NCBI RefSeq assembly: GCF_010731595.1
Contig: NZ_AP022582.1
Coordinates: 4,526,001-4,590,000, forward strand
Length of the DNA: 64,000 nucleotides
Direction of reading: 5' to 3'
Source of the DNA: Mycobacterium seoulense
Lineage (GTDB): Bacteria > Actinomycetota > Actinomycetes > Mycobacteriales > Mycobacteriaceae
The stretch's first letter is position 1, and each line of letters opens with the position of its first letter. Under the pieces are notes generated by a model. The model did no database searches. It worked only from the letters and a program-made list of their open reading frames with translations, and was not told the DNA's origin. This document shows positions 1,285-20,995 of the stretch, in pieces. Made by a program: the position numbers and the translations under genes.

Positions 1285-1312
1285 ACGTGCAACTCTACGA
1301 AGTCGTTCACCG

Positions 1313-2173
1313 TTATTTCGCTTCCCGGCCGGACTTGCCCGGGCGCGGGCGCACCAGCACGGACTGCTGGATGGCGCCGACCGCGCCCCGCTCGTCGAAC
1401 AAGGTGCCGATCGTGGTGCCGACACCGTCCGGGCCGTAACTGGTCTCGGCGCGAATGCCGATCCAGTCACCGTCGGGAACCCGGAACACGTGCACGGCCA
1501 GATCGGTGTTGAGGAACGTCCACCGGGTGATGTTGAGCTTGCTGCCGATGCCGTTGGCGCAGTCGGCCACGGCGAACAGGCGCTCCAGCGGTGTCATGGT
1601 CTCGCCGGTGACCAGGTCCACGGTCGGGCGGATCCACGATTCGCCGGGGCCCTCGCTCAGCGGCTCCGTCAGCCACAGCCAGTCCAGGCTGTGCACGTAG
1701 TTGCGGTCCCACTCCCGTGCCTTGAGGTTGCGGTTGCGCGCCTCGCTGCGCGGCCCGGGCATCGGGGCCGCGGCGTGGGCCACCGCGCGCGTGTCCAGCG
1801 TCTGCAACCGCCATCCGCTGGCGCGCGCCACCGCCCGGGGTTGGCCGTCGGGACCGGGGGCCAGCATCTCGGCGCTGACCAGTTCGATCTGTTTCCCGCC
1901 GCGCTGGACCTGCGCGGTGACCCACAGGTCGCCCTCGGCGGGCACCCCGCCCAGCAGGTCGATGACGACGCGCGACAGGCGGGTGTCCTCGCGCTGCTGG
2001 CAGCGCTCCAGCGCCCGCACCAGCAGCGCCGACACCGGACCGCCGTGCTGGATCGCGGCCGACCAGGTGCCGCGCGCCAGGTCGGTGGCCCGGAACTTCT
2101 CGCACTCGGGATAATTGCCGCCCGGGGCGGCGGCGCCATCGACGAGCTCGTAGTAGGAGTCCGACATCGTCAA
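1313..2173 (-). CDS. Acyl-CoA thioesterase-like protein (double hotdog)
   Basis: The 286-residue product resembles the TesB-like thioesterase family of actinobacteria, with two hotdog halves. The N-terminal half carries RGTWSAAIQHGGPVSALLVRALE, and the C-terminal half carries CANGIGSKLN and WTFLNTDLAVHVFR. It would hydrolyse acyl-CoA in the cytoplasm. The start may be the first ATG or the ATG two codons later (2167). It follows the SMP-30 gene by 7 bases and precedes the TetR gene, so co-transcription is likely. A second thioesterase of similar type lies at 3673-4554 on the opposite strand. Confidence 0.8.
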   Translation of the reverse strand: MTMSDSYYELVDGAAAPGGNYPECEKFRATDLARGTWSAAIQHGGPVSALLVRALERCQQREDTRLSRVVIDLLGGVPAEGDLWVTAQVQRGGKQIELVSAEMLAPGPDGQPRAVARASGWRLQTLDTRAVAHAAAPMPGPRSEARNRNLKAREWDRNYVHSLDWLWLTEPLSEGPGESWIRPTVDLVTGETMTPLERLFAVADCANGIGSKLNITRWTFLNTDLAVHVFRVPDGDWIGIRAETSYGPDGVGTTIGTLFDERGAVGAIQQSVLVRPRPGKSGREAK

Positions 2174-2180
2174 CCTCTCG

Positions 2181-3002
2181 TCAGGGCAGGCCGGCGCCGG
2201 GGGTGCTCACCGTGACGGCATCCAGCCGCGACAGCCGGGTGCCGATCAGGCGCTGGGGGTATGCGTCCGTGCTCGACAACAAGAACAGTGTCCGGCGCTC
2301 GGGGCCGCCGAGCGCGCAGGCGATGGCGACACGCTCGCCCATGTCGATGCGGTCGGTCACGGCGCCGCCCTCGACGATCCGCTCGAACTGGTGGGCCAGG
2401 GTCATCGACGCCCACACCGCGCCGTCGGCGTCGAGCGCGATGCCGTCGGGCGGCCCGTCCAGGCCGTCGGCGAACGGTCGGCGCTCGGCCAGTCCGCCGT
2501 CGGCGCCGATGGTGAAGGCGGTCAGCCGCCGGCCGATCGACTCGGCGACGATGAGGGTCTCGCGGTCGGGCGTGATCACCATTCCGTTGGGAAAGTCGAG
2601 GTCTTGGGCGACGACGGTGGCGGTGCTGTCCTCGGGATCCAGCCGGATGATCGAGCCGCCGCTTCGCGCCTGGCATCCGATGTAGGCGCGGCCCACGTCG
2701 TCGATGACCATGTCGCCGAGGTTGGCCGGGGCCAGCTCGGCGAGATCGGCGATGGTGTCGACGGTTTCACCGTCGTAGCGCAAGACCTTGCGGTCTTCGG
2801 CCGAGACGATCAGTAGCGACCCGTCGGGCCGGAAACCCAGACCCGAGGGGGAATGCCCGGGCAGCGGCAACGTGGTCAGCGAGCCCCCCATCGTGGAGGT
2901 GTGCACCGCCTCGCCCAGCATGTCGGAGAACCACAGCAGGCCCTCGAACCAGCGTGGCCCTTCGCCGAAGCAGAAGCCGTTGGCCAGCGGCTCGGGAATC
3001 AT
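2181..3002 (-). CDS. SMP-30/gluconolactonase-like beta-propeller protein
   Basis: The product has 273 residues, a normal length for the SMP-30/gluconolactonase/LRE family of six-bladed propellers that hydrolyse lactones. Visible family features are FGEGPRWFEG near the N-terminus (metal-ligand Glu), PNGMVITPD (Asn) and DGPPDGIALDADG (Asp). A lactonase would fit a pathway with a Baeyer-Villiger monooxygenase, which makes lactones or esters; that link is inference. The start at 3002 has a GGAAGG about 10 bases upstream. An operator-like motif lies at 3020-3047, so this gene probably begins its own transcript. Confidence 0.82.
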   Translation of the reverse strand: MIPEPLANGFCFGEGPRWFEGLLWFSDMLGEAVHTSTMGGSLTTLPLPGHSPSGLGFRPDGSLLIVSAEDRKVLRYDGETVDTIADLAELAPANLGDMVIDDVGRAYIGCQARSGGSIIRLDPEDSTATVVAQDLDFPNGMVITPDRETLIVAESIGRRLTAFTIGADGGLAERRPFADGLDGPPDGIALDADGAVWASMTLAHQFERIVEGGAVTDRIDMGERVAIACALGGPERRTLFLLSSTDAYPQRLIGTRLSRLDAVTVSTPGAGLP

Positions 3003-3019: not shown

Positions 3020-3047
3020 TTTACAAAACACCGCCAAAGTGTCACGC
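3020..3047. promoter_or_regulatory. Operator-like motif, copy 1 (TTTACA-N11-AAGTGTCACGC)
   Basis: TTTACA at 3020-3025 and AAGTGTCACGC at 3037-3047 are 17 bases apart start to start. The identical arrangement recurs at 3608 and 13002. The TTACA and TGTCA cores form an imperfect inverted repeat, as expected for a TetR operator. This copy lies 18-45 bases upstream of the SMP-30 start. Confidence 0.7.
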
Positions 3048-3063
3048 ACCGCGGGTACCGGTG

Positions 3064-3540
3064 TCAATCTTGCGACTTGGCGAGTTCTCGCGCGACCGCC
3101 TCATGGTAGGCATCTATCTTCGCGGGATTGACCTGTGCAAAGAGCTGATCCGGCAGCGGGGCGTGCTTGGCCGCCTCGATCGTCATGGTCCGGGAGAACA
3201 GTGTGATGTCCTGCCCCGGTCTGGTGAACCGGTACGCCACCGTGATGCGGCCCTCCATTCCCCCGGCGCCATCGCGATCGTGGCCCAGGCGCCCGACCGA
3301 GGTGAACACGAAGAGCTCCGGGCGCACCGCGGCCGCCAGTTGCCAGGTGAAGATCCGGTCGCCGTCGGGACCCGCCTCCTCCCAGGTGTCGCCGACGCGC
3401 AACGACAGCTCCGGCAGGCCGCCGATGTGCGCGCTGCCGGGATAGGTCTTGGTCCAGTTCTCCGGGTTCGTGACGAAGTCGTAGACGGTCTCGGCGGACT
3501 GGGTGAATGCGGTCTCCGAAGTGCTGGTCACGATACCCAA
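3064..3540 (-). CDS. SRPBCC family protein (START/Bet v1-like fold)
   Basis: The product is about 158 residues with the polyketide cyclase/SRPBCC pattern: AETVYDFVTNPENWTKTYPG at the N-terminus, then a GDTWEE strand and ending in a long amphipathic helix. These proteins bind hydrophobic ligands in a deep cavity. The start is chosen as TTG at 3540, because a good GGAGG lies 8 bases upstream. GTG at 3531 and ATG at 3582 are in the same frame but less well placed. It faces the plus-strand thioesterase operon across a 132-base divergent region that holds operator copy 2. Confidence 0.75.
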   Translation of the reverse strand: MGIVTSTSETAFTQSAETVYDFVTNPENWTKTYPGSAHIGGLPELSLRVGDTWEEAGPDGDRIFTWQLAAAVRPELFVFTSVGRLGHDRDGAGGMEGRITVAYRFTRPGQDITLFSRTMTIEAAKHAPLPDQLFAQVNPAKIDAYHEAVARELAKSQD

Positions 3541-3607
3541 TTGCGTTGCCTCCGTGTGTATTCCGTCGGTGGATCGACCCACTGGGCCGCGGCCTTGTTA
3601 GCCAACC

Positions 3608-3635
3608 TTTACAAATCCTACGCAAAGTGTCACGC
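3608..3635. promoter_or_regulatory. Operator-like motif, copy 2
   Basis: TTTACA (3608-3613) and AAGTGTCACGC (3625-3635) have the same spacing as the copies at 3020 and 13002. It sits between the divergent SRPBCC gene (start 3540) and thioesterase gene (start 3673), so it can control both directions. Confidence 0.7.
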
Positions 3636-3672
3636 TGAGCCGTGAGCGGCTAGCGCGAGAGGCGGAGCGGAA

Positions 3673-4554
3673 TTGACCACGGAATCTGAGCAGACCGAGT
3701 GGACGGTGCAGGGCCTGCTGGATCTGTTCGATGTGCAGCCCGACGGGCAAGACCGGTTCACCGGCGACACCGGCATCGCCGCCGGCGACGAACGACAGGT
3801 GGTGGAAGGCACCCAGGTGCTCGCCCAAGCGATCGTCGCGGTGGCCAAACGCTTCCCGGACAAGTCGGTCCGCTCGGCGCACGCGGTGTTCTCCCGCGCC
3901 GTCACGGTCGGCCCGCCGATCGAACTCGTCCTCGACGTCGTCGCCGAGGGCCGCTCCACGGCCACCGCGGTTGTCGCCGTGCACCAGAACGGTCGGCGCT
4001 GCCTGAGCATCACCGTGCTGGCCGACGTGCCGACCGGCGACGTCATCCGCCACCACCTGCCCCGTCCCGACGTGGCCGCGCCCGCCGACGCCATCCCCTC
4101 GCCGATGCCCATGGTGGGCCGGGAACTGCGCCTGGTCGACGTCGTCGACGTCAACAGCCCCGACGAGGTCGGGCCGCCGGAGCTCTACGCGTGGCTGCAC
4201 TACGACCCGATCCCCACCCGCGACGACCTGGCCAAGGCGCTGCTCGCGTACTTCACCGGGCATCTGGGGATCTCCACCACCATGCGCGCGCACCCCGGCA
4301 TCGGCACCGCCCAGGCGCACCTGACCGTGTCGACCGCGCCCATGAGCATCTCGGTGGCGTTCCACGAGCCGGTGCGCTGGGACGGGTGGCTGCTCTACAC
4401 CCACGAGAGCACCCAGGTCGGCGCGGGGATGTCGTACGTGCGCGGCACGGTGCACTCGGAGGAGGGCGAGCTGCTGTGCTCGTTCGCCCAGGAGGCGCTG
4501 ATCCGGCCGCTGCGCACGACCGACACGGCGATCGATTCCCGCGCACGGTTCTAG
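3673..4554 (+). CDS. Acyl-CoA thioesterase II-like protein
   Basis: The 293-residue product fits the TesB/acyl-CoA thioesterase family (double hotdog). Features include the N-terminal FTGDTG segment, a central domain break with RELRLVDVVDVN, and a C-terminal half with HEPVRWDGWLLYTHEST and GTVHSEEGELLCSFAQEALIRP, which is typical of TesB. It would release free acid from acyl-CoA. The TTG start at 3673 is preceded by GGAG. It leads a three-gene operon with an LLM oxidoreductase (gap 15) and an acyl-CoA dehydrogenase. A long open frame on the opposite strand here is an artefact of high GC. Confidence 0.88.
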   Translation: MTTESEQTEWTVQGLLDLFDVQPDGQDRFTGDTGIAAGDERQVVEGTQVLAQAIVAVAKRFPDKSVRSAHAVFSRAVTVGPPIELVLDVVAEGRSTATAVVAVHQNGRRCLSITVLADVPTGDVIRHHLPRPDVAAPADAIPSPMPMVGRELRLVDVVDVNSPDEVGPPELYAWLHYDPIPTRDDLAKALLAYFTGHLGISTTMRAHPGIGTAQAHLTVSTAPMSISVAFHEPVRWDGWLLYTHESTQVGAGMSYVRGTVHSEEGELLCSFAQEALIRPLRTTDTAIDSRARF

Positions 4555-4569
4555 CGGCTGGTCGCGCTC

Positions 4570-5490
4570 ATGCACTTCACCATCACCCACCCGATGCACA
4601 GCCACCCGTACAACCCGGAGCTGGTGAGCGGGGACGGCATCGGGAAGGTGGCCGCGGCCACCGAGGCGGCCGGCATCCACGGCTTCGGCTTCACCGACCA
4701 CCCGGCGCCGTCGCAGCGGTGGCTGGAAGCCGGCGGCCATGACGCGCTGGACCCTTTCGTCGCACTGGGTTTCGCGGCGGCGACGACGAGCACGCTGCGG
4801 CTGATCCCCAACATCGTGGTGTTGCCCTACCGAAACCCGTTCGTGGTGGCCAAGTCCGGCGCCACACTGGACCTGCTCTCCGGCGGCCGGTTCACGCTCG
4901 CGGTGGGAGTGGGCTACCTCAAACGGGAGTTCGCCGCGCTGGGGGTCAGCTACGACGAACGTGCCGAACTGTTCGAGGAAGCCCTGCAGGTGATCCGCGC
5001 GGTCTGGACGGGTGACGACATCACCTATGAGGGAAAGCATTTCAGCGCGCGCGGCATCACCGCACACCCCCACCCGCCGAGCGACCCGCATCCGCCGATC
5101 TGGATCGGCGGCAACACGTCCTCGGCGCGCCAGCGGGTGGCGCAATACGGCGACGGCTGGTGCCCCTTCCCGGCGCCGCCCCAACTGGCCCAGACCGCAG
5201 GTACGGCGGTGATCGACTCGGTGGCGCGCCTCACCGACGGCATCGACGACCTGCGGCGCCGGTGCGACGCCGCGGGCCGGGACTGGTCGGCCATCGACGT
5301 CACCTTCACCAACTTCGAGGGCGGCAGCCCCGCCGACGACGCATTCAACGCCGACGCCTACCTCGACGGCCTGGAGAAGCTGGCGAAGACGGGCGTGACG
5401 TGGGTGAGCGTCCACCTGCCCGGCGACAGCATGGCGCACGCGCTGGAAACCCTCGACCGTTTCCGCACCCTCGTGATCGACGCGGCCTGA
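4570..5490 (+). CDS. LLM class F420-dependent oxidoreductase
   Basis: The 306-residue product has the luciferase-like TIM-barrel family signatures: GFGFTDHPAP, LRLIPNIVVLPYRNPFVVAKS, LSGGRFTLAVGVGYLKREF and PPIWIGGNTSSARQRVAQYGDGW. In mycobacteria such enzymes usually use coenzyme F420 rather than FMN to oxidise or reduce alcohols, ketones or enoyl groups. Its stop overlaps the start of the acyl-CoA dehydrogenase (TGATG), which suggests translational coupling and a shared pathway. The substrate is unknown. Confidence 0.88.
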   Translation: MHFTITHPMHSHPYNPELVSGDGIGKVAAATEAAGIHGFGFTDHPAPSQRWLEAGGHDALDPFVALGFAAATTSTLRLIPNIVVLPYRNPFVVAKSGATLDLLSGGRFTLAVGVGYLKREFAALGVSYDERAELFEEALQVIRAVWTGDDITYEGKHFSARGITAHPHPPSDPHPPIWIGGNTSSARQRVAQYGDGWCPFPAPPQLAQTAGTAVIDSVARLTDGIDDLRRRCDAAGRDWSAIDVTFTNFEGGSPADDAFNADAYLDGLEKLAKTGVTWVSVHLPGDSMAHALETLDRFRTLVIDAA

Positions 5491-6671
5491 TGGACTTCTC
5501 CCGCGTCGACCTCTCACCCGAGGACCGCGCCTTCCGCGACGAGACCCGGGCGTTCCTCGAGAAGCACGTCACCGACGAGGTGCTGCACCGGCAGCTGGAG
5601 TACGGCGAAAACTTCGACGAGCACGTGCATCTGGCGCTGGGCGAAGCCGGCTACCTGGCGTCGGACTGGAAGCTCGAGTCCGAAGGCGGATTCAGCCCGG
5701 TCCGTCGACGCATCTTTCAACTCGAGATCGGCCGGGCCCACACGCCGTGGTATCACTGGGGCACCACGTCCGTGGTCGCCCGGTTGGTGCGACAGTTCGG
5801 GGCGCCCGAGCTCGCCGACAGCGTCCTTCCGGGTGTGCTGTCCGGCGAGATCCGGCTGTGCCTGGGCTACACCGAGCCCGAGGGTGGCTCCGACGTCGCC
5901 ACCTGCAAGACCCGGGCGGTGCGGGAAGCGGATGGATCTAGCTGGATTATCAATGGCTCCAAGATGTTCACGTCGAACGCGCAGAACGCTCGCTACGTCT
6001 TCCTGCTCACCAACACCGACCCCCAGGGGCGCAAACACCGGAACCTGACCATGTTCCTGGTGCCACTCGATTCGCCGGGCGTCGAGATCCAGGGCATCCG
6101 CACCCTGGACGGCGATCGCACCAATATCGTCTACTACAGCGACGTCCGCGTCGACGACCTCCACCGCATCGGAGAAGTCAACGACGGCTGGACGGTGATG
6201 CGCGCGGCGCTGGACTCCGAGCACGGCCTCGTGGATCCCGAAGATCATGGCCTGCAATACATTGCGGCGATGGCCGGGCACGGCGACGTGATGGCCGAGG
6301 TGGTCGACACGGTGGCGGCGGCCGTCGCTCGACCGGGCCCGGACGGCCGGCGGCCGCTGGACGACGATTCGGTCAAATACCGGCTGGGGCGCGGCGTCGC
6401 GCGGATGGAGGCGGCGCTGTCCACGCCCGGGATGTTCGGGCGGGTCGCGGTCGCTCAGACGATGCGCGACGTCACCCCGGATCTGATGGACATCCTGGGA
6501 ACCGCCTCGGCGTTGCCCACCGAGACTCCGGGCTCCGCGACCGACGGTGCGGCAGAACACCTTTACCGGCTGGCGCTGCCGCTGGGGATCTACGGCGGGA
6601 CCATGGAGGTGTTCCGCAACATGATCGCCCAGCACGAACTCAAGCTCGGACGACCCAGCTACGGCGGCTGA
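5490..6671 (+). CDS. Acyl-CoA dehydrogenase
   Basis: The 393-residue product is of normal length for the FAD-dependent acyl-CoA dehydrogenase family. Signatures are CLGYTEPEGGSDVATCKTRAV (FAD/substrate binding), WIINGSKMFTSNAQNARYVFL and the C-terminal LPLGIYGGTMEVFRNMIAQHELKLGRP. It would introduce a 2,3 double bond in an acyl-CoA and pass electrons to ETF. The start is the ATG overlapping the previous stop; the longer open frame upstream is not coding. It ends a three-gene operon governed by operator copy 2. It may act on branched or cyclic acyl-CoA, but nothing proves this. Confidence 0.92.
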   Translation: MDFSRVDLSPEDRAFRDETRAFLEKHVTDEVLHRQLEYGENFDEHVHLALGEAGYLASDWKLESEGGFSPVRRRIFQLEIGRAHTPWYHWGTTSVVARLVRQFGAPELADSVLPGVLSGEIRLCLGYTEPEGGSDVATCKTRAVREADGSSWIINGSKMFTSNAQNARYVFLLTNTDPQGRKHRNLTMFLVPLDSPGVEIQGIRTLDGDRTNIVYYSDVRVDDLHRIGEVNDGWTVMRAALDSEHGLVDPEDHGLQYIAAMAGHGDVMAEVVDTVAAAVARPGPDGRRPLDDDSVKYRLGRGVARMEAALSTPGMFGRVAVAQTMRDVTPDLMDILGTASALPTETPGSATDGAAEHLYRLALPLGIYGGTMEVFRNMIAQHELKLGRPSYGG

Positions 6672-6777
6672 CTCGGGTCATCGCGTCCACCGACGAGCGC
6701 TCTGCATTCCGGCGCGCCAACGTGCTTTCGGAGCGCTACCGTTTCACCGAGTGCCGGTGGCAGAGAGGTGGCCCGCA

Positions 6778-7506
6778 GTGGTTGTTCTGGTGGCCCTCGG
6801 TTCGTTCGCCACCACCTTGCTCGGCGGTTATGCGGCGCTGCGCATCGGTTCCTACCGCTATCTGGTGCTGGGCCTGGTCGCCGGGCTGATGCTCGGCGCC
6901 GTGGCCTTCGACCTGCTGCCGGAAGCGCTGAGCCAGGGGTCGTGGAGGGTGTTCGGCATACCCGCCCCGCTGGTGGCCTTCGTCGTCGGCTTTCTGGTCC
7001 TGCATGTCGTCGAACACACGGTCGGCATCCATCGCGGCGACGGATCGGATGACGCCGGCGTACCTGAGGCGCCCGGCATCGGGATCCTCGCCGCGTCGGG
7101 GCTGATCGGCCACAGCCTGATGGACGGATTCGCCATCGGGGCCGCCTTTCAGGCGGGGGCCGGGCCGGGGGCGGTGGTGGCGGTTGCGGTGATCGGCCAC
7201 GATTTCGCGGACGGCTTCAACACCTACACCGTCACGTCGCTCTATGGAAACGACCGCCGACGGGCGCTGGCGCTGCTGGCCGCCGACGCCGTCGCGCCGC
7301 TGGTCGGTGCGGCCCTCACGCTGGCCGTGACGATTCCCCATCGCGTACTGGGGTTGTATCTGGGATTCTTCGCCGGTTTCCTGATGTATCTGGCCAGCGC
7401 CGACATCCTGCCGAGGGCGCACGCCGGACATCGGACTCCGGTGACCTTGGCGTGCACCATCGGTGGTGCGCTGTTCATGCTGGCGATTGTCGGCCTGGCG
7501 AGCTAG
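6778..7506 (+). CDS. ZIP family metal transporter-like membrane protein
   Basis: The product is about 242 residues and very hydrophobic, with seven to eight membrane segments. Conserved ZIP-type polar motifs are visible in the fourth and fifth helices: HSLMDGFAIG and GHDFADGFNTY. ZIP carriers move zinc or other divalent metals into the cytoplasm. The GTG at 6778 is preferred because a GAGAGG precedes it; an in-frame GTG at 6751 would add nine residues. The gene stands alone between a catabolic operon and a LuxR remnant. A zinc/iron permease annotation is sound; the metal is unknown. Confidence 0.8.
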   Translation: MVVLVALGSFATTLLGGYAALRIGSYRYLVLGLVAGLMLGAVAFDLLPEALSQGSWRVFGIPAPLVAFVVGFLVLHVVEHTVGIHRGDGSDDAGVPEAPGIGILAASGLIGHSLMDGFAIGAAFQAGAGPGAVVAVAVIGHDFADGFNTYTVTSLYGNDRRRALALLAADAVAPLVGAALTLAVTIPHRVLGLYLGFFAGFLMYLASADILPRAHAGHRTPVTLACTIGGALFMLAIVGLAS

Positions 7507-7655
7507 GCGAACTGGGGTTCAACGCCTCTGGGTGCGCGCCCGTGGTGATCCCATCGCGGGTACCGGATTTCGCGCTAAAACACCCGGCTGCAATCGATTT
7601 CGGGAATGTCTTTGCCGCTGGGGCCAGGCGGCCGCCTCGGCGATGATCGCATTCG

Positions 7656-7844
7656 GAGATCGGCGCCCAGCTGTTCATCAGTCCGAACACCGTCGCGTAC
7701 CACTTGCGCAAGGTATTCATCAAACTGGGCGTGACCGCACGGCGCCAACTCGCTGTCGGGACGATCAATCAATCACCGCCCGTCGCCGACTGGCGATTGG
7801 CCGCCACGGGCGACGAGACGTCGACGGCCTTCAACAGTCAATAG
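7656..7844 (+). pseudogene. LuxR-type regulator remnant (C-terminal HTH only)
   Basis: One frame reads [20 protein letters not shown] followed by [13 protein letters not shown], a textbook LuxR (GerE) helix-turn-helix, and ends at TAG 7842-7844. Upstream the frame is lost: bases 7631-7655 could resume the expected AA-S-G segment only after a one-base shift, and no ATPase or receiver domain precedes it. It therefore looks like the decayed tail of a large LuxR regulator. The rest of 7507-7655 shows nothing recognisable. Confidence 0.75.
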
Positions 7845-7848
7845 CGCG

Positions 7849-8508
7849 TCACGGGATGGACTTTGGCGACTGCTGAAGGCGGGTGGCGAGTACCGCGACT
7901 CCATCACCGGTCAAATGCCCTAGCGCCCAGGGACGGCCGGCCAGCACTGAGGCAAGGTGGCCGGCTTCGCCGGTGACCGTTGGTCCATCACTGGGGCGTG
8001 ACCAGGTGGTGTCGGTGGCGATGAGGTTCAGGCCTCGTGCGCGTGCAGAGGCCGGGACGAACGGGTTCGGAATTCCTACCTCGGTGTCGAGAACGGCGGC
8101 GAGTATTGCCGGGGGAATCGCGGAGTCGGCACCGAGCGTGTAGCTGATATCCAGTTCATGGATGACGTGATCACCGAGGAGCAGTCGACGGGGGAAAACG
8201 CGCCCGATGCCTCGCGCCCGCAGTGTCAATGCCGCAAGGTCATCGATCAGCGTGTGCGGGTCCCGTCGTGCCGCCAACGCGCGGGCCATTGAGGAGTTGG
8301 TGCGGTCGAACGAACCCCGGTGTCGCAACATCGCGGCGCCGATCGACGGCAGCGTGGCTGAGTAGCCGACGACGAGGTGGGCCAGGATTTCGTGGTTACT
8401 CCAGTCTGTGCACAGGCTGGGCTGCGACCACTGGCCTGCGGTGAGAGTACTGAGAAATGCAACGAGCCGAGCGTCGTTGTCCTGAAGGGCATCAACCGCT
8501 TTGGACAT
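7849..8508 (-). CDS. Mycothiol-dependent maleylpyruvate isomerase/DinB-like protein
   Basis: The 219-residue product has the N-terminal helical-bundle domain of the mycothiol-dependent maleylpyruvate isomerase (MDMPI/DinB-like) superfamily: LTAGQWSQPSLCTDWSNHEILAHLV, with later metal-type histidines in LLLGDHVIHELDIS. Family members use a metal and mycothiol, but most actinobacterial copies have no assigned substrate. Its 5' end overlaps the stop of the upstream alpha/beta hydrolase by 17 bases, so the two are translated together. The pair is divergent from a TetR gene that probably represses it. Confidence 0.75.
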   Translation of the reverse strand: MSKAVDALQDNDARLVAFLSTLTAGQWSQPSLCTDWSNHEILAHLVVGYSATLPSIGAAMLRHRGSFDRTNSSMARALAARRDPHTLIDDLAALTLRARGIGRVFPRRLLLGDHVIHELDISYTLGADSAIPPAILAAVLDTEVGIPNPFVPASARARGLNLIATDTTWSRPSDGPTVTGEAGHLASVLAGRPWALGHLTGDGVAVLATRLQQSPKSIP

Positions 8509-9397
8509 TCAAGTGCTCCTGAAGGAATTGGGTTTGGTCGGCGAGCAATTCCCCTAGTAAGGGCGGGTGATAAATCTGGAAGTGGTCCCCGTCGTAGTGA
8601 CGGACGACGCCATACGGCGCGCGGTGTCCCACGTCCGCGGCATGGCGCGGGTTCATGAGGGTCTCTCGTGCGGAGACGCATACCAGCAGTGGAGCCGCAA
8701 TTCTCGCGGCGCCGTGTTTGGCGCTGGTCACGCCGATCCCGATGACGTCGGCGGCGGCGATGCGGTTGTCGAAGGTCGTGCCGGCGGGCACGGTGGAGTA
8801 CCAGCCGGCGAGAGCACCGGGGATGGTGACTGCAGCGAGGCTGCCCGGTTCGCCGACGATGGGGACATATCGTGGGGCGGCGCCCCACCTGCGGCGAAAC
8901 AGGTCGTCGAGGATCGCCGGTGTCGCGCGGAGAGCGAGCCGCCAGCCGTTGCGGGCCAGTGTTGCCGGTCCATGGACGATCGGGCACTGCACGACCACCG
9001 CAGCGAGATCGCGCCGGGCTCCGGCTTCCCGCAGCACGTGCATCGCGCCGAGGCTGGTGCCCCACAAGCCGATTCGTTGGGAGTCGATGCTGTCGTGGTG
9101 ACGTAGATAGTCCAGCGCAGCGCCGACGTCCTGTTGGTGTCGGCGCATGCTGAAGCGCTGCCGTGGTGAACCGTCCGAAGCGCCGGTGTGCCGGTAGTCG
9201 AAGGCCAGTGTCGCCACGCCGGCATCTGCGAAGTGTTGCTCGTATTGCGACATCACCATGCCGTGCGTCGCGCCGAGGCCGTGGCAGAGTACAACCCCCG
9301 GATGGGGGCCGGCGCCGTGCGGCAGGGTCAGCCAGCCCGTGCACCGAACGCCTTGCGAAGTAAACGAGACCGTGGTGGTGGCGATGTGAGTGCTCAT
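8492..9397 (-). CDS. Alpha/beta hydrolase
   Basis: The 301-residue product has the alpha/beta hydrolase fold. The oxyanion segment is VVLCHGLGATHG, the nucleophile elbow is GTSLG (Ser of GxSxG) and the catalytic His lies in GDHFQIYHP near the C-terminus. There is no signal peptide, so it acts in the cytoplasm. A strong GGAGGGA precedes the ATG. It is first in a two-gene operon with the MDMPI-like gene and divergent from a TetR regulator across two GTAC-containing repeats. It is probably an esterase or dienelactone-type hydrolase. Confidence 0.85.
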   Translation of the reverse strand: MSTHIATTTVSFTSQGVRCTGWLTLPHGAGPHPGVVLCHGLGATHGMVMSQYEQHFADAGVATLAFDYRHTGASDGSPRQRFSMRRHQQDVGAALDYLRHHDSIDSQRIGLWGTSLGAMHVLREAGARRDLAAVVVQCPIVHGPATLARNGWRLALRATPAILDDLFRRRWGAAPRYVPIVGEPGSLAAVTIPGALAGWYSTVPAGTTFDNRIAAADVIGIGVTSAKHGAARIAAPLLVCVSARETLMNPRHAADVGHRAPYGVVRHYDGDHFQIYHPPLLGELLADQTQFLQEHLNVQSG

Positions 9398-9420
9398 GAC
9401 AAACTTCCCTCCATCGATGC

Positions 9421-9462
9421 GTACGTTGTACGTATTGGTCTACTTTAGGTACGCTGTACGTG
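9421..9462. promoter_or_regulatory. Tandem operator-like repeats between TetR and hydrolase genes
   Basis: Two nearly identical 14-base sites, GTACGTTGTACGTA (9421-9434) and GTACGCTGTACGTG (9449-9462), lie 28 bases apart. Each contains GTAC-N3-GTAC, which is an inverted repeat. They are in the divergent region between the hydrolase and TetR genes, the classic place for a TetR operator controlling both. Confidence 0.65.
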
Positions 9463-9517
9463 TCAAGGGGTCCCAAGCGGGAGGTGAGCTATCCGGGCAC
9501 GATTCACCGTCTCTGAA

Positions 9518-10168
9518 GTGCGCGCACACGCAATGGGGATCGTCGATCGCGACGGGCTGAGCGCGCTAAACATGCGCTCGCTGGCAACCGCCCTGGGCAC
9601 CGGGCCGATGACGCTCTACAACTACGTCAGAGATCGAGAGGAACTCGAGGCTTTGGTTGCCGAAGCGGTGCTGGCCGACGTGAAACTACCTGCGCCGTCC
9701 GACGATTGGCTTGTTGATGTGAAATCCATCGCGATCGCTGTGTGGGAATCAATGCGCCGTCACCGTAACGCTGTCCCGCTGGTCCTGACCCGCCGCACCG
9801 TATCGAACGAGAGCTTCGCGCCTGCAGAACAGCTCGTCGCGGCACTGGTCCGTGGCGGACTTGCCGACCACGATCTGTTGGCCGCCTTTCGTGGGGTGCT
9901 CAGCCTGATCATGGGTGCCGCGCAAGTGGAGTTGGCCGGCCCCGCGGCGGTGGGCGTCCCAGAGCAGGCCAACATCGATGCCGCCAGCCGCATCGGACGC
10001 CTGGCGGACAACGACCACCCCCACCTGGCAGCCCTGGCATCCACCAGTCAACAATCATCGATGGCCGCGGACTTCAACCGCGCCCTCGACATGCTGCTAG
10101 TTGGAATCCAGACCCGCGCGGATACGTCTCGAACGAAGCGGAACAGTCGACGCACCCCGAAGCGTTGA
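9518..10168 (+). CDS. TetR family regulator (5' end disturbed)
   Basis: The 216-residue frame encodes a TetR regulator with HTH residues SLATALGTGPMTLYNYVRDREEL and a TetR_C-type ligand domain. The GTG at 9518 lies inside the first helix. The same frame continues upstream as ARFTVSE up to a stop at 9485 without a normal start codon. Another frame starting with GTG at 9460 reads a typical TetR beginning (MSRGPKREVSYP) and then hits a stop at 9514. A one-base indel near 9490-9505, or a non-standard start such as ATC at 9491, would reconcile them. It probably controls the divergent hydrolase operon. Confidence 0.75.
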   Translation: MRAHAMGIVDRDGLSALNMRSLATALGTGPMTLYNYVRDREELEALVAEAVLADVKLPAPSDDWLVDVKSIAIAVWESMRRHRNAVPLVLTRRTVSNESFAPAEQLVAALVRGGLADHDLLAAFRGVLSLIMGAAQVELAGPAAVGVPEQANIDAASRIGRLADNDHPHLAALASTSQQSSMAADFNRALDMLLVGIQTRADTSRTKRNSRRTPKR

Positions 10169-10178
10169 GCTGCGACGC

Positions 10179-10853
10179 CTAGCTACGGCGGCTGACCGGC
10201 AGCTCCGCGGTCACGTCGGCGCGGGCGGCGTCGAAGCTGAAAAACCCTTTGATGGGCAGGCTTTCCGGCGGCGGATCGGGGTAGCTCCACGCGACGTCCT
10301 CGACATCGCCCGCGGACCAGTAGGTGGCGAAACCCTTGTAGTTGCAGTAGCTCGACGTATCCGAGCGACGCAGCAGGTCGGTGCGCACGTGCGCCGGATC
10401 GACGTAAAGCCTTGGTTCTAAGGAGGTTTCGAAGACGATCACGGTGTCGTCGGTGTCCACCAGCACCGTGCCGGCGATCGAGACACGCAGCCGGCGCTTG
10501 GTGGGACGGCAGTCGACGCGGTGGTAGGGATTGGGTGGGTAGTGGACGAGTTCGCGGCCCTCTTCCAGCCAGGTGTCGACGGCGTCCCAGGGCACGTGCA
10601 CGAAGCCCGGGGCCTCTGGCTCGGGTTCGGTGGGCAGGTCACCGACCTCGTCTGCCCGGAAGGCATAGCCGAGCGGTTGGCCCCGCCGGTGCACCAGCAG
10701 CGCCCCTTCGGTGTCGATCACCAACTGCCCATCCCGAACAGCTTGCACGCGGCGCGGATGAGGCTCGATGAACACGACGTCGGCGGGCAGCGGGGGCGAA
10801 AACCGACCGGCCGGATCACTGCTGAGTGGACCGCGTCCGGCTACCAGGCTCAT
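10179..10853 (-). CDS. DUF427 domain protein
   Basis: The 224-residue product contains two DUF427-like halves. The first includes RVQAVRDGQLVIDTEGALLVHRRG; the second, VSIAGTVLVDTDDTVIVFET..RLYVDP, runs on to YCNYKGFATYWSAGDVEDVAWSYPDP, the family core. DUF427 is a small beta-rich domain of unknown function common in actinobacteria and fungi. It is a single gene, converging on the TetR gene 10 bases away. No pathway can be inferred. Confidence 0.8.
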   Translation of the reverse strand: MSLVAGRGPLSSDPAGRFSPPLPADVVFIEPHPRRVQAVRDGQLVIDTEGALLVHRRGQPLGYAFRADEVGDLPTEPEPEAPGFVHVPWDAVDTWLEEGRELVHYPPNPYHRVDCRPTKRRLRVSIAGTVLVDTDDTVIVFETSLEPRLYVDPAHVRTDLLRRSDTSSYCNYKGFATYWSAGDVEDVAWSYPDPPPESLPIKGFFSFDAARADVTAELPVSRRS

Positions 10854-10903
10854 GGTGTGAGGCTAGACCTCTGTCGGCTGAGCCGGTGTACGCCGGGACC
10901 GGG

Positions 10904-11626
10904 TCAGTGGTCCGCACCGAGCAGCGCCGCGTACTGACGTTCGAGCACCTTGGCGGCGCCACTGCCCCAGCGCTCGGCCAACGACCGTGAGAACGGGTCG
11001 GGGAAGATTTCGTCATCGTCGTTCTCCACCCCGTCGAAGATGGCTTGCGCCACCGCTCCCGGCGAGGCTTTCGGTATGTCCAGGCCGCGGGTCATCTCGG
11101 TGTCCACGGGCCCGGTCAGCACGGCATGCACACGCACTCCCTGCTTGGCCAAGATGACACGAAGCGATTGCGTCATGGAGAACGCCGCGGCCTTGGAGAC
11201 GGAGTAGGCCGGAATGATGGGCAGGGGGGCCAACGCGTTCACCGACAGGTTGTTGACGATCGATCCGCCGGATCGGGCCAACAGCGGCAGGAAGGTCTCG
11301 ATCACGGCGTAGGTGCCGAGAAGGTTGACCTCGAGGTGCCGTTGGAGCGCGGAGGGGTCGCTCAAGTCGTCGTAGAGCGCGAGGCCGGCGTTGTTGACGA
11401 GGATGTCTAGGGAGTCAACCTGCTCGGCTGCCGCCCGAAGCTGCGCGGCGTTGGTGATGTCCAGCGTCAAAGGCGTCACGCGGGCGTCGCCATTGCCCGC
11501 CAAGGCTTTCCGGGTACCGGCGTACACCTGTCGGGCGCCCCTGTTCAAGGCCTCCACGGACAGCGCACGCCCGATGCCGCGGTTGGCGCCGGTGATCAGA
11601 ACCGCTTTTCCTGCGATCGTTGTCAC
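10904..11626 (-). CDS. Short-chain dehydrogenase/reductase
   Basis: The product is 240 residues with the classical SDR pattern: TGANRGIG cofactor motif near residue 13, LDILVNNAGLALYDD, the catalytic YSVSK and DTEMT after the PG motif. It is an NAD(P)-dependent oxidoreductase in the cytoplasm. The GTG at 11626 is chosen because GGGAG lies 9 bases upstream; an ATG at 11635 would touch that ribosome site. It is divergent from the CoA-transferase gene across about 190 bases in which no clear operator was seen. Confidence 0.85.
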   Translation of the reverse strand: MTTIAGKAVLITGANRGIGRALSVEALNRGARQVYAGTRKALAGNGDARVTPLTLDITNAAQLRAAAEQVDSLDILVNNAGLALYDDLSDPSALQRHLEVNLLGTYAVIETFLPLLARSGGSIVNNLSVNALAPLPIIPAYSVSKAAAFSMTQSLRVILAKQGVRVHAVLTGPVDTEMTRGLDIPKASPGAVAQAIFDGVENDDDEIFPDPFSRSLAERWGSGAAKVLERQYAALLGADH

Positions 11627-11817
11627 AGAGATCATCTCCCTTGTCGTTTCGTATTGCCGGCGGCCCGCGCCTCTCGTGGGGCTCACCGCGGCGAGCCGTC
11701 GAGGCCCGCATCTATTCCGATGCATCGGGACGCGCGAAATCATCGATCGGCAGATCAGGAGTGCGTGACATGCCAGGATGCGTGCGCTCGGCCGCGCTAA
11801 CCGGTAGGAACGTAGCC

Positions 11818-12987
11818 ATGGCGGGACCAATGGAGGGTGTCAAGGTCGTCGAGCTCGGAGTGTGGGTCGCCGGACCGGCCGCCGGCGGCATCCTGGCCGA
11901 CTGGGGAGCCGACGTCATCAAGATCGAGCCGCCGAGCGGCGACCCGGGCCGGCTGTTCGGCAGGATGCTCGGCTGCGACCTCGGGGTCAATCCGCCGTTC
12001 GAGATGGACAACCGCTCCAAGCGCAGCATCGTGTTGAATCTCGCGGAGGAGGCGGGCCGAGACATCGCTTTCGAATTGCTGCGCGACGCCGACGTTTTCG
12101 TGACGAATGTGCGGCCGGGCGCGTTGCAACGCCTGGGGCTCGACTTCGAGTCGGTGTCGGCCCGTAATCCTCGCCTGGTCTACGGGCTGATCACCGGATA
12201 CGGCGAAACCGGGGCCGACGCGGACCGGCCCGCCTACGACGTGGCCGCGTTCTGGTCGCGGGCCGGGGTTGCGCATCTGCTCACCCGGCCCGGCGACACG
12301 CCGCCGTTCCAGCGCGGCGGCATGGGCGACCACTCGGCCGGCATGACGCTGGCGGCCGCCATCTGCGCGGCGCTCGTTGCCCGCGCGCGCACCGGGACCG
12401 GTCAGCTGGTGACCACCTCGCTGTATCGCCAGGGCGCCTACACGGTGAGCTTCGACCTCAACACCTATCTGCTGACCGGCCAGCCGATCGCGATCGGGCA
12501 ACGCGAAACGATGGGCAACCCGTGCATGAACAACTACACGACCGCCGACGGGCGCCGATTCTGGATCGTCGGCCTCGAAGTCGATCGGCACTGGCCGCCG
12601 CTGTGCCGTGTCGTCGGTCATCCGGAATGGCTGGAGGATCCCCGGTTCCGCGACGCCTACGCGCGGTTCACCAACGCTGTCGAACTGATCGCCGAGCTGG
12701 ACGCGATCTTCGCCACCCGCACGCTCGACGAATGGGCACAGGTCTTCGCGGGCGAACCCGACTTTTTCTGGTCGCCGGTCAACAGCCTCGAAGACGTCGT
12801 CGCCGACGAACAATTCCACGCGGCCGGCGGCATCGTCGACGTGCCGGACGGGGAAGCCAGCGTTCCGATGGTGGCCACACCGGCCGATTTCCACGGCACA
12901 CCGTGGGCGCCCCGTTCTGCGGCACCGGAACTCGGGCAGCACACCGAGGATGTGCTCGCCGAACTCAAGGCGCGCCGCGGGTCGTGA
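11818..12987 (+). CDS. CaiB/BaiF family CoA-transferase
   Basis: The 389-residue product belongs to the class III CoA-transferases. The N-terminus has MEGVKVVELGVWVAGPAAGG and WGADVIKIEPPSGDPGR, then MDNRSKRSIVLNL, DVFVTNVRPGALQRLGLD and LVYGLITGYGETG, all family hallmarks. The enzyme activates a carboxylic acid by moving CoA from an acyl-CoA donor. The start is the ATG at 11818, which begins the conserved fold; frames further upstream carry no homology. It ends 14 bases before operator copy 3 of the downstream operon, so it may feed the same pathway from a separate transcript. Confidence 0.9.
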   Translation: MAGPMEGVKVVELGVWVAGPAAGGILADWGADVIKIEPPSGDPGRLFGRMLGCDLGVNPPFEMDNRSKRSIVLNLAEEAGRDIAFELLRDADVFVTNVRPGALQRLGLDFESVSARNPRLVYGLITGYGETGADADRPAYDVAAFWSRAGVAHLLTRPGDTPPFQRGGMGDHSAGMTLAAAICAALVARARTGTGQLVTTSLYRQGAYTVSFDLNTYLLTGQPIAIGQRETMGNPCMNNYTTADGRRFWIVGLEVDRHWPPLCRVVGHPEWLEDPRFRDAYARFTNAVELIAELDAIFATRTLDEWAQVFAGEPDFFWSPVNSLEDVVADEQFHAAGGIVDVPDGEASVPMVATPADFHGTPWAPRSAAPELGQHTEDVLAELKARRGS

Positions 12988-13001
12988 CCACCGGTCGCGC
13001 C

Positions 13002-13029
13002 TTTACAAAATTGCTCTGAAGTGTCACGC
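13002..13029. promoter_or_regulatory. Operator-like motif, copy 3
   Basis: TTTACA (13002-13007) and AAGTGTCACGC (13019-13029) repeat the arrangement at 3020 and 3608 exactly in spacing. It lies 95 bases upstream of the first gene of the nine-gene operon at 13124-20965, about 9.4 kb from the other copies. Confidence 0.7.
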
Positions 13030-13123
13030 TGTCCGGTGTGCCGCGTGAGCGGCCACGGCCCAGGACAAGCGTTGCGGCAAGCGCCAATGCACGGTTTCGG
13101 TGCGGCGGTGAGGAACGGATTGA

Positions 13124-13714
13124 ATGGTCACGTCAACGTTCGACATCAGGCAAGGCAGCCGGGTCAACGCCCGAGCCGGCCGGACTGACCGTGAGTGTCT
13201 GCGATATCGGCTCGACGTCATCGCGGTCAGCGCCCTCGACGTCGTCCGATCGGCCGGAGGTTGGCTCTACGACCGGGCGATGGCCGGCTGGCAGGTGACG
13301 GTGCTCCTGCCGGATGGCGCCGACGCCCGGTCCCTGCGGATCCTGGGCGTGCGGGCGGCGGACTTGGAGGAGCAGTTCGCCGCGACGGGTCCCGGCTGGA
13401 CGAGTCAGAGTCTGGCCGTGAGCGCCGAGGCGTTCGCCGCGGACGCCCGCGTGCGCGACTTGGTGCTCACGTCGCTCGACGACCGGTTGACCGAAGTCGC
13501 GTTGTGGGGTCAGCTGCCTTCGGGCTGGCCACTGCGGGTGGATCGCGGGGTGGCCAGGGCGCAATATGCCCTCAGCGCGGCCGCGCGCAGGTTCAAGGGC
13601 CATGCGCTCGCGGCGTCCGGGATCGATTGCCCCACGGTCTATTCCACCGAGGCGCTGCTCTGCGACTTGGCGACCTGCGAGCGCATCGATTCGGGGCTGG
13701 TCCGGCTCGACTGA
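13124..13714 (+). CDS. Unknown protein, first gene of catabolic operon
   Basis: The 196-residue product is not recognised. It has no signal peptide or membrane segment, is rich in Ala, Arg and Asp, and contains DVVRSAGGWLYDRAMAGWQVTVLLPDGADARSLRILG near the N-terminus and a region RGVARAQYALSAAARRFK. Two Cys (CDLATC) lie near the end. A GAGGAA precedes the ATG. Its stop overlaps the start of the next gene (TGATG), so it belongs to the operon. It might be a regulator or scaffold, but no fold can be claimed. Confidence 0.7.
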   Translation: MVTSTFDIRQGSRVNARAGRTDRECLRYRLDVIAVSALDVVRSAGGWLYDRAMAGWQVTVLLPDGADARSLRILGVRAADLEEQFAATGPGWTSQSLAVSAEAFAADARVRDLVLTSLDDRLTEVALWGQLPSGWPLRVDRGVARAQYALSAAARRFKGHALAASGIDCPTVYSTEALLCDLATCERIDSGLVRLD

Positions 13715-14418
13715 TGAAGAAGTACTACCGCCACACGCTGCTCTATCTGCACGAGACCATCTCGCTCGGCTCCGGGCGAAGCGATTGCTTCACCGAGGTG
13801 TTCTCCGATACCTACCGGCCGATGATGAACGAGCTCGGGGCGCGATTGTTCGCAATCTGGGAGAGCACGCCCTACAACGGTCACTGGCCGCAGGTGACGA
13901 TCATCTGGGAGATCGACGGGTTCGCCGACTACGCGCGGATCGGGGCCGCCCAGGCCCGCGGCGGCAGCCACGAAGCCGCGGCCGGCAAATGGGCGGCCTT
14001 CCTGGCCGACATCGGCGCCGCGGGCGAAGGCCGCATCATGTACCCGGGGCCCAGCAACAAGACCCTCGCCCAGCTGCGCGAGGCCAATTTCGCTGCGCCG
14101 CTGGTGATCCAGGAGATCATGCAGACCAAGCCGGGACGCCAGGACGACTACATCCGCGAACTGGAGCGCCTCTACGTCCCGTGGTCGGAACGCACCGGCA
14201 AACGCTGGCTGGGCTCGTTCACCACGACCTTCCGCTACAACGAGGTCATCCACTACTGGGCGCTGGACGGCGGCTGGGAATGCTTCGCCAACCACTACCC
14301 ATCGTGGAAGGAAAGCCCGCCCCCGGAGATCGTCACCTGGATGAGCGTGGCGCCCGCCCTGCGTGACGGCTGGGAAGACTCCATCCTGCAGGCCCTACCG
14401 CCGTCGCCGCTGCAGTGA
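13714..14418 (+). CDS. Possible NIPSNAP/dimeric alpha-beta barrel protein
   Basis: The 234-residue product appears to have two ferredoxin-like halves rich in aromatic residues. The first is KKYYRHTLLYLHETISLGSG..FSDTYRPMMNELGARLFAIWE; the second is FAAPLVIQEIMQTKPGRQDDYIRELERLYVPW. Both resemble the strand-helix pattern of NIPSNAP-like or EthD-like proteins, which often act on small hydrophobic substrates. It overlaps the P450 gene by four bases (GTGA). The function is a guess; the coding status is firm from the tight coupling on both sides. Confidence 0.7.
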   Translation: MKKYYRHTLLYLHETISLGSGRSDCFTEVFSDTYRPMMNELGARLFAIWESTPYNGHWPQVTIIWEIDGFADYARIGAAQARGGSHEAAAGKWAAFLADIGAAGEGRIMYPGPSNKTLAQLREANFAAPLVIQEIMQTKPGRQDDYIRELERLYVPWSERTGKRWLGSFTTTFRYNEVIHYWALDGGWECFANHYPSWKESPPPEIVTWMSVAPALRDGWEDSILQALPPSPLQ

Positions 14419-15656
14419 CGGGACAGCGAGCACGCGTGGACGTCACCGACTTCGCCTACGACCCCTTCGACGCGCGGGTGATGGCGAACCCGCTGCCGTA
14501 CTACCGGATCCTGCGCGACCATCATCCCGTGTACTACATGCCGCAGTGGGACACCTTCGCCCTGTCCCGATTCGAGGACATCTGGCAGGTGCTGGAGGTC
14601 AACGACGGAACGTTCGTCGCGTCGGAAGGCACCCTGCCGGCGGCGTCCGTCCTGGCCAAGCACAACTCCGGCCCGGTCGCCGACCCGCCCTTGCACCCGC
14701 TGCCGTTTCACGCGGTGTTCGACACGGATCTGTACGCGGAAATCCGGCGTGCGCACTCCCAGCCGCTGCGGCCCAGGTCGGTCACCGGCTGGGAGGCCAG
14801 AATCCGCGAGCTGGCCAACGAGCGCCTCGACGAGCTGCTGCCGCGCGGTTCGTTCGACCTCACCCAGGACTACGGCGGCATCGTCGTGGCGTCCGTCGTC
14901 TGCGAACTGCTGGGCATCGCAACCGATCTCGCACCGCAGGTGCTCGCCGCGGTCAACGCCGGCAGCCTCGCCGAGCCCGGCGTCGGGGTGGACACCGCCG
15001 AAGCGCGGCCCAACTACTTCGAGTACCTGCTGCCGGCGGTTCGCCGCCGCCGCGCCGACCAGTCCGGGCAGCCGCTCGCCGTGGTGGACGGCCTGCTCGG
15101 CTACCGACTGCCCGACGGCAGCCCGCTCGACGACGTCGAAGTCGCAACCCAGATGCTGTGCATCTTCATCGGCGGCACCGAGACGGTACCCAAGATCGTC
15201 GCCCACGGGCTGTGGGAGCTCGGCCGGCGGCCCGACCAAATGGCAGCGGTGCGCACCGACCCCGAGAACAACGTGCCCGTCGCCCGCGAGGAGATGATCC
15301 GGTTCTGCGCGCCCGCGCAGTGGTTCGCCCGAACCGCGCGCAAGCCCTTCACCATTCACGGCAAGACCATCCGGCCCGGCCAGCGCGTCATCACCCTGCT
15401 CGCATCGGCCAACCGCGACGAGCGGGAGTATCCCGAACCCGACGAGTTCATCTGGGACCGGCCCATCCGTCGCTCGCTGGCCTTCGGCCGCGGCCAGCAC
15501 TTCTGCATCGGCTACCACCTGGCCCGGCTGGAAGTCGCTGTGCTGCTGCAGGAATGGTTACGCCGGGTGCCCGAGTTCGCGATCCAGGCCGACGCCGCCA
15601 GGCGGCTGCCCTCGAGCTTCCAGTGGGGTTGGAACAACATCCCGGTGGAGGTCTGA
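14415..15656 (+). CDS. Cytochrome P450
   Basis: The 413-residue soluble P450 has the heme-binding loop FGRGQHFCIGYHLAR with ligand Cys364, the ExxR motif at E293-R296, and an I-helix GGTET (253-257) in which the usual acidic residue before the Thr is Glu. There is no membrane anchor, as in bacterial class I P450s that take electrons from ferredoxin; no ferredoxin gene is adjacent. It would hydroxylate a hydrophobic substrate as an early step of the pathway encoded by this operon. The CYP family cannot be assigned by eye. Confidence 0.93.
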   Translation: MTGQRARVDVTDFAYDPFDARVMANPLPYYRILRDHHPVYYMPQWDTFALSRFEDIWQVLEVNDGTFVASEGTLPAASVLAKHNSGPVADPPLHPLPFHAVFDTDLYAEIRRAHSQPLRPRSVTGWEARIRELANERLDELLPRGSFDLTQDYGGIVVASVVCELLGIATDLAPQVLAAVNAGSLAEPGVGVDTAEARPNYFEYLLPAVRRRRADQSGQPLAVVDGLLGYRLPDGSPLDDVEVATQMLCIFIGGTETVPKIVAHGLWELGRRPDQMAAVRTDPENNVPVAREEMIRFCAPAQWFARTARKPFTIHGKTIRPGQRVITLLASANRDEREYPEPDEFIWDRPIRRSLAFGRGQHFCIGYHLARLEVAVLLQEWLRRVPEFAIQADAARRLPSSFQWGWNNIPVEV

Positions 15657-15657
15657 C

Positions 15658-17390: not shown

Positions 17391-17785
17391 GCGATGATCA
17401 AACCGCGATCCGCGAATTGCTGGCCGGTTACGCCCTCGCGCTCGACGCGGGCGACATCGACGAATGCCTGGAGCTGTTCCTCCCGCACGCCGAATTTCGG
17501 GTCTACGGGCGGCGTTTCGCTGGGCATGACGGCATCGGAAGAATGTTCCGGGACGCTCCGCGCGGGCTGCACCTGACCGGGGTGTCGCGCATCGACGTCC
17601 GCGGCGACACCGCAACCGCGCGGTCGCAGGTGTTGTTCGTCCGGGCGGGTGACCTGCACCTCCGACCCGCCCTCTACGACGACGAACTGGTGCGCACCGA
17701 CGGGCGGTGGTGGTTCCTGCGGCGCCGCTGCCACTTCGTCACCAGCCGCGGCCTGTCCGACACCCCGGAGGTCACGCCATCATGA
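17387..17785 (+). CDS. SnoaL/NTF2-like protein
   Basis: The 132-residue product has the nuclear-transport-factor-2-like cone fold signature: IRELLAGYALALDAGDIDECLELFLPHAEFRVYGRRF..GIGRMFRD at the N-terminus and the terminal RTDGRWWFLRRRCHFV. Members include ketosteroid isomerases, dehydratases and small subunits of ring hydroxylases. In this operon an isomerase or dehydratase role would fit, but catalytic residues cannot be assigned with confidence. It overlaps its neighbours on both sides by four bases. Confidence 0.82.
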   Translation: MSDDQTAIRELLAGYALALDAGDIDECLELFLPHAEFRVYGRRFAGHDGIGRMFRDAPRGLHLTGVSRIDVRGDTATARSQVLFVRAGDLHLRPALYDDELVRTDGRWWFLRRRCHFVTSRGLSDTPEVTPS

Positions 17786-20965: not shown

Positions 20966-20995
20966 GCGCACGGGCCGTCGGCAGAATGTCCTGCC

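Follow-up and report, generated by a model that had tools for sequence, protein, structure and literature searches.

A predicted TetR-family operator, in part doubling as a probable promoter, at three transcription units of a P450/Baeyer-Villiger monooxygenase cluster in Mycobacterium seoulense

Introduction

TetR-family regulators with palindromic operators have been described in several bacterial systems, three of which come close to the one considered here. First, the regulon of KstR (Rv3574) is marked by a motif of 14 base pairs (bp), TnnAACnnGTTnnA, with 16 further intergenic copies in one species and 31 in another (PMC1995591). Second, QacR is described as binding a 28-bp palindrome as a tetramer, and third, a 2015 survey of mycobacterial TetR-family regulators gives 11 predicted motifs and 30 regulators named by M. 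tuberculosis gene number, Rv0158 among them (both PMC4482099). In this study, we analyzed a stretch of 64,000 nucleotides of the Mycobacterium seoulense genome (assembly GCF_010731595.1, contig NZ_AP022582.1, positions 4,526,001 to 4,590,000; hereafter the window), in which an operator-like motif occurs three times near a gene for a TetR-family regulator of 180 amino acids (742-1284, minus strand; hereafter TetR). We propose that this protein is the cognate repressor of the three sites, and that the sites facing rightward genes probably serve as promoters as well.

Results

The motif, TTTACA-N11-AAGTGTCACGC, is located on the plus strand at 3020-3047 (site 1), 3608-3635 (site 2) and 13002-13029 (site 3). 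The initial annotation of this DNA had pointed out these three 28-mers, with correct coordinates and with 17 fixed bases that are indeed identical. In the genome of 5,531,300 bp there are three exact copies, all of them within one stretch of 10 kilobases (kb). The same annotation had judged such a repeat very unlikely by chance in DNA of 68% guanine plus cytosine (computed value, 68.8%), which held up in 100 dinucleotide-preserving shuffles of the window: with up to three mismatches allowed, the mean was 0.05 matches, and 0/100 shuffles reached three. Beyond the exact copies, the genome scan gave four matches at 2-3 mismatches versus two for the reversed control. On a scoring matrix for which 113 distinct sites from 40 related loci were taken (among them those of the near relative L068, which has the same three site sequences as the window), the four matches scored 25.0, 15.0, 8.5 and -1.4, whereas the three window sites scored 42-46. 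Many unrelated copies, which had been named as the outcome that would speak against a local regulon, were not found in this whole-genome scan. A chance repeat was dropped as an explanation because the shuffle counts, the genome-wide count and the matrix scores all stand against it. A weak possible fourth site, TTTACAGATTCAAGCCATAGTGTAACCC, with a matrix score of 25, is located about 34 kb to the right of the window (G000:C1:4623691-4623718, L007), where a crotonase-like gene has just ended and a possible start codon follows after about 26 bp.

Each site had been placed in a gap upstream of a gene start, and the gene map agrees for all three. Site 1 lies 17 bp upstream of a leftward SMP-30/gluconolactonase-like gene (2181-3002, minus strand, assigned by profile search), which forms one apparent leftward operon with a 4HBT_3 acyl-CoA (CoA, coenzyme A) thioesterase-like gene (1313-2173, minus strand) and TetR. 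Site 2 lies between the divergent SRPBCC-like gene (3064-3540, minus strand), which separates it from site 1, and a 4HBT_3/TesB-like thioesterase gene (3673-4554, plus strand), the first gene to its right. Site 3 lies between a CaiB/class III CoA-transferase gene (11818-12987, plus strand) and the operon of the cytochrome P450 (P450) and the Baeyer-Villiger monooxygenase. This operon had been described as having nine genes; site 3 does precede it and the first nine genes end at 20965, but the run comprises up to 13 same-strand genes (13124-24541). The imperfect inverted repeat that had been noticed in the motif is real and longer than described: the half-sites TTTACA and GTGACA (other strand) are 20 bp apart, centre to centre, and form a 26-bp imperfect repeat.

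The motif is closely associated with TetR across the genus. Using TTTACA-N12-AGTGTCACGC with at most one mismatch, the motif was found in 232 of 297 Mycobacterium genomes, while the reversed control gave 7 matches in 7 genomes. TetR was present at E <= 1e-20 in 247 of the same genomes; 230 had both, 17 had TetR alone, 2 had the motif alone and 48 had neither. The motif is thus present in 230/247 TetR-bearing versus 2/50 TetR-lacking genomes, 30 of the latter 50 having been identified by subtraction (Fisher p = 3e-38, uncorrected for relatedness). One motif-only match, that in G264 (TTGACATGTCAC...), looks like chance. As judged from the sequences, a large part of Mycobacterium shares the predicted switch together with the genes under it. 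Two genomes stand out by their numbers, G067 with 16 motif copies and 4 TetR matches and G049 with 7 motif copies and 5 TetR matches, and both probably carry enlarged regulons. One locus of the latter (L259, G049:C5:1-20000) carries P450 genes and three diverged copies of TetR (40-55% identical) within its 20 kb, as well as a site at which TTTACA and TGTAAA stand 6 bp apart, accompanied by GTGTCAC.

The placement of the sites was examined at 40 loci of 20 kb around TetR, which were picked for carrying TetR; sites were counted at up to two mismatches and genes were called by a simple codon-usage script. Homologous sites were counted once per genome and hence are not independent. All 40 loci have at least one site, with 123 sites altogether, and sites are likewise present at 80/80 loci of the named close-relative set (the best 80 of 166 close relatives), at 1-4 each. 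The 123 sites fall between divergent genes (78), in rightward tandem gaps (22), in leftward tandem gaps (16), in a convergent gap (1) and inside predicted genes (2), with 4 at unresolved ends, and they are found where TetR, SMP-30, thioesterase and P450-operon genes start. A site is located within 260 bp upstream of 27 of the 52 TetR genes at these loci, and 13 further TetR genes end an SMP-30/thioesterase/TetR run having a site before SMP-30; for the latter count the gene maps were read by eye, those of L086-L090 being partly or wholly left out, while the site and base-29 counts take in all 40 loci. Sites 1 and 2 are 60-220 bp apart in some relatives, and in others, as in the window, the SRPBCC-like gene intervenes. 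Many leftward start codons are only 3-11 bp from a site. Next to TetR itself, the window has a decayed site, TCTACGAAGTCGTTCACCGTTATTTCGC (1294-1321, plus strand), whose position matches that of sites in relatives that are intact or have decayed in part. The lineage of the window has lost this TetR-proximal site by decay, and stages of the process are seen at the same place among relatives.

The base that follows the motif depends on the direction of the neighbouring gene. In an extended logo of 122 unique sites, C stands at position 0 in 98% and T at position 29 in 77%. Among sites with an unshielded rightward gene ahead of them within 150 bp, 79/80 have T at base 29, versus 15/41 others (p = 7e-15, sites not independent; the count covers 121 of the 123 sites, the two inside predicted genes being left out). 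Sites that serve SMP-30 only have A at base 29 in 10/11 cases, and site 1 of the window likewise has A (3048), so that it is read as an operator only; base 29 is T at site 2 (3636) and at site 3 (13030). Because of this link between T at base 29 and rightward genes, we propose a promoter TTTACA-N17-CACGCT inside the operator. At site 2 (3608-3636, plus strand), the putative -35 element TTTACA at 3608-3613 would be separated by a 17-bp spacer from the -10 element CACGCT at 3631-3636, and at site 3 (13002-13030, plus strand) the corresponding elements would be located at 13002-13007 and 13025-13030. Set against the sigma-70-type spacing of 16-18 bp, the 17-bp spacer fits and the -10 element is a poor match. 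The commonest gap from site to rightward start codon is 7 bp, from which a leaderless message is expected. In rightward-facing sites, the motif therefore probably doubles as a promoter, a point unseen by the initial annotation. In many genomes across the genus, all sites lie on one strand regardless of the direction of the flanking genes; a promoter explains this orientation for rightward genes and does not explain it for leftward ones.

The protein encoded at 742-1284 has an N-terminal helix-turn-helix typical of the TetR family (TetR_N, PF00440, 53.4 bits versus a cut-off of 24; Pfam 2.3e-14). Its AlphaFold2 model (pLDDT, predicted local distance difference test, 79.6) is all-helical, with nine helices, and the best-ranked Foldseek matches are TetR-family structures; the model is that of a generic TetR and yielded no ligand clue. 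The recognition helix SRPTLYR is unchanged in nearly all homologues compared. Three known identities were considered and rejected. KstR was dropped because the NCBIfam KstR equivalog gave 30.9 bits against a cut-off of 280 and because the motif differs. A tandem protein of the Mce3R type was dropped because the protein has 180 amino acids with a single TetR_N stretch, whereas the Mce3R chain in the PDB has 406. Rv0158 was dropped because it has a separate likely counterpart about 7.5 kb to the left of TetR; this was placed from neighbouring pnt-like genes judged by eye, with no family search, on what we take to be the pnt gene order by Rv0158 in M. tuberculosis.

A related element was found beside TetR homologues outside the genus. 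A search of 301 family genomes gave a TetR homologue (E <= 1e-15) in 38, nine of them outside Mycobacterium. Six TetR-bearing genomes belong to genera g11 and g23, their homologues being 43-55% identical to the window TetR, and in 6/6 the pattern TTTAC-N6-TGTAA-N4-TGTAA lies just upstream of TetR as the sole match. Only 7/301 genomes match this pattern, and reversed controls gave 0; the six loci served to derive the pattern, but its near absence from the remaining 295 genomes was not imposed by this choice. G542, the seventh genome, has no TetR at its site. The spacing of TTTACA and TGTCA in Mycobacterium recurs between the two outer elements of the pattern, and at five of the six loci an extra TT(T/G)ACA, 9 bp to the left, makes four half-sites. 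Of the three remaining genomes outside the genus, G340 (g20) carries a site of the mycobacterial type, at full strength, ahead of NIPSNAP, and G315 and G555 have short contigs with weak sites only.

The genes behind the sites suggest a catabolic function. To the right of site 2, the thioesterase gene is followed by genes for an F420-type LLM oxidoreductase (4570-5490, plus strand, TIGR03619) and an acyl-CoA dehydrogenase (5490-6671, plus strand). The operon after site 3, all on the plus strand, begins with a gene giving no Pfam match (13124-13714) and continues with a NIPSNAP-like protein (13714-14418), the P450 (14436-15656; nearest solved structure, CYP130), a Zn-alcohol dehydrogenase, an HpcH/HpaI aldolase, a SnoaL-like protein and an SDR (15658-18510), and the Baeyer-Villiger monooxygenase (18507-20012). 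Type I Baeyer-Villiger monooxygenases have the fingerprint FxGxxxHxxxW, which is present here as FTGTVMHSARW, and the best solved relatives of this protein are flavin-binding, cyclohexanone and steroid monooxygenases. The operon ends with an Abhydrolase_3 alpha/beta-hydrolase, an enolase-superfamily protein, an Fe-alcohol dehydrogenase, a 4HBT thioesterase and an SRPBCC (Polyketide_cyc) protein (20009-24541). Judging from the enzyme families alone, the pathway probably oxidizes an alicyclic compound, with hydroxylation, ketone and lactone formation, ring opening and CoA activation. For the SRPBCC-like gene between sites 1 and 2, whose name comes from the initial annotation, Pfam and NCBIfam gave no match at the thresholds used. 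Two further regulators are encoded in the region, a second TetR (TetR_C_1, MftR2-like, 9518-10168) inside the cluster, which has a match in 14/60 related genomes, nearly all far from the cluster, and a GntR/FCD (Mce1R-like) regulator (24595-25287). The latter opens a stretch beyond the cluster (24595-30331) with a FadD-size gene, labelled by gene size with no family search, and MlaE/Mce genes; this order is presumably that of the M. tuberculosis mce1 locus.

Discussion

Taken together, the motif is very probably the operator of the TetR encoded at 742-1284, which would repress three units and be released by a pathway intermediate. We infer binding and repression from the sequences as follows. 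TetR would bind the 26-bp imperfect dyad, and probably two dimers would do so cooperatively, since the half-sites are 20 bp apart and a single TetR-family dimer of the ordinary kind usually spans less. When no inducer is present, TetR would block the SMP-30/thioesterase/TetR unit (autoregulation), the rightward thioesterase/LLM/acyl-CoA dehydrogenase genes and the P450/Baeyer-Villiger monooxygenase operon. At rightward-facing sites, where the operator would carry the TTTACA-N17-CACGCT promoter, bound repressor would cover the -35 and -10 elements together. Release might be brought about by a pathway intermediate, perhaps a cyclic ketone, a lactone or an acyl-CoA.

Several observations weigh against this proposal. 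The co-occurrence test is uncorrected for shared ancestry, and TetR and its target genes travel together. The motif is absent at up to one mismatch from 17/247 TetR-bearing genomes; the best-scoring stretch upstream of TetR reads TTAC-N16-GT(A/C/G)A in 6 of these, a looser TTAAC...TGTCAC in G042, and is unrecognisable in 10/17. When ten of the 17 genomes were viewed over 18-19 kb, seven of those ten showed no match to other cluster genes. Conversely, G241 (L269) has two good sites, and its best TetR match is a partial one of 43% at E 1e-9; matches to TetR, P450, NIPSNAP and the monooxygenase were not found in its reduced cluster. At the 40 loci, 12/52 TetR copies have neither a site of their own nor an SMP-30-operon site. 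As for the promoter, CACGCT matches the usual -10 poorly, and A at -2, the mirror position of base 29, shows no association with leftward targets (46/84 versus 19/37, p = 0.84), which leaves the leftward promoter unexplained. A mirror leftward promoter, GTGACA-N17-AAAGNT, was rejected for the same reason, although its spacing fits (commonest leftward gap, 9 bp).

Three other explanations were weighed. An unlikely one is that TetR binds the sites and activates the embedded weak promoter. Some TetR-family proteins do activate, NCBIfam names FasR an activator, and the proposed -10 element is weak; however, both promoter elements are covered by the site, and many leftward start codons are 3-11 bp away from it, which suits a steric block. 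Still less probable is that a particular sigma factor uses the motif as its promoter, with co-regulation through RNA polymerase, and that the motif is not an operator. TTTACA-N17-CACGCT can pass for a -35/-10 pair, rightward genes go with T at base 29, and a leaderless transcript would have the gap that is most frequent at rightward start codons. Yet the 16 leftward tandem sites have no adjoining rightward gene and a motif opposite in direction, and TGTCA is kept in 16/16; moreover, it is a single TetR gene that the motif follows, and in other genera a related element with a different right half (TGTAA) accompanies the TetR homologues. The least probable explanation, that the sites belong to the GntR/FCD regulator or the TetR_C_1 protein, both encoded in the cluster region, was dropped because the presence of GntR tracks the motif loosely and that of the second TetR does not track it. 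In 40 motif-bearing and 20 motif-free genomes, GntR is commoner with the motif (35/40 versus 11/20), which also counts against the first TetR, but those 11 motif-free genomes have it, 5 motif-bearing genomes do not, and in several others it lies at a distance from the cluster; TetR_C_1 is present in 11/40 and 3/20, and 10 of its 11 motif-bearing genomes have it far away from the cluster. The 40 and 20 genomes were chosen also by presence and absence of the first TetR, so that its own score in this set is meaningless; the 297-genome table was not so chosen. The assignment of the motif to the TetR at 742-1284, already favoured by the initial annotation, is thus supported by the 297-genome co-occurrence, the TetR-proximal sites in relatives, the co-diverged operator in other genera and the poorer fit of the two other regulators.

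The operators of the different genera allow a tentative evolutionary scheme, which we hold to be possible though rather less than even in likelihood. The TetR subfamily may ancestrally have had a four-half-site operator, two per side with a 9-bp step (TTTACA-ACC-TTTAC-N6-TGTAA-N4-TGTAA, still present in another genus), of which Mycobacterium would have kept one inner and one outer half-site; the kept TTTACA would have become the -35 element of the target promoter, and base 29 would decide if a site acts as an operator alone or as a promoter too. Together with the change of operator from genus to genus, the base-29 rule makes a compact case of a repressor site and a promoter evolving on the same DNA. 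In addition, the analysis provides a predicted regulator, operator and target list for a widespread mycobacterial P450/Baeyer-Villiger/lactonase pathway of which no description was found, and using them the pathway inducer, and hence the substrate, becomes directly searchable. In the window genome, the cluster adjoins an mce1-like lipid-transport locus.

No direct report of this TetR regulon was found in a literature search that reached few subscription papers, and the AlkX paper (PMC9430723) uses none of the terms motif, operator and palindrome. As far as searched, a TetR repressor of a P450/Baeyer-Villiger/lactonase pathway, as predicted here, has most likely not been described previously. 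Comparison with known systems places it as follows. The 2015 survey used the same approach, with palindromes upstream of divergently placed TetR genes (PMC4482099); its regulators were compared with the window TetR by gene number, not by motif logo, and the window TetR is probably not its Rv0158. Bidirectional bacterial promoters are similar in that pseudo-symmetric DNA serves divergent genes, whereas here the rightward promoter alone is supported and a leftward one by symmetry failed its test (PMC12825309). The operator resembles that of QacR in its length of about 26-28 bp (PMC4482099). A further likeness, as judged here from sequence alone, is that the half-sites are probably too far apart for one ordinary dimer; in contrast, the half-sites here are unequal, and inner half-sites are degenerate in Mycobacterium and present in other genera. 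KstR, whose regulon serves lipid breakdown, and the present system are alike as TetR-family repressors of breakdown genes, predicted here to be autoregulated and to act at a palindrome that precedes the targets and overlaps the promoter, but KstR has a 14-bp motif in many copies, whereas the dyad found here is widely spaced, 26-28 bp long and present in three copies at a local cluster (PMC1995591). KstR is therefore the nearest described kind known to us, with a different motif and a different scale.

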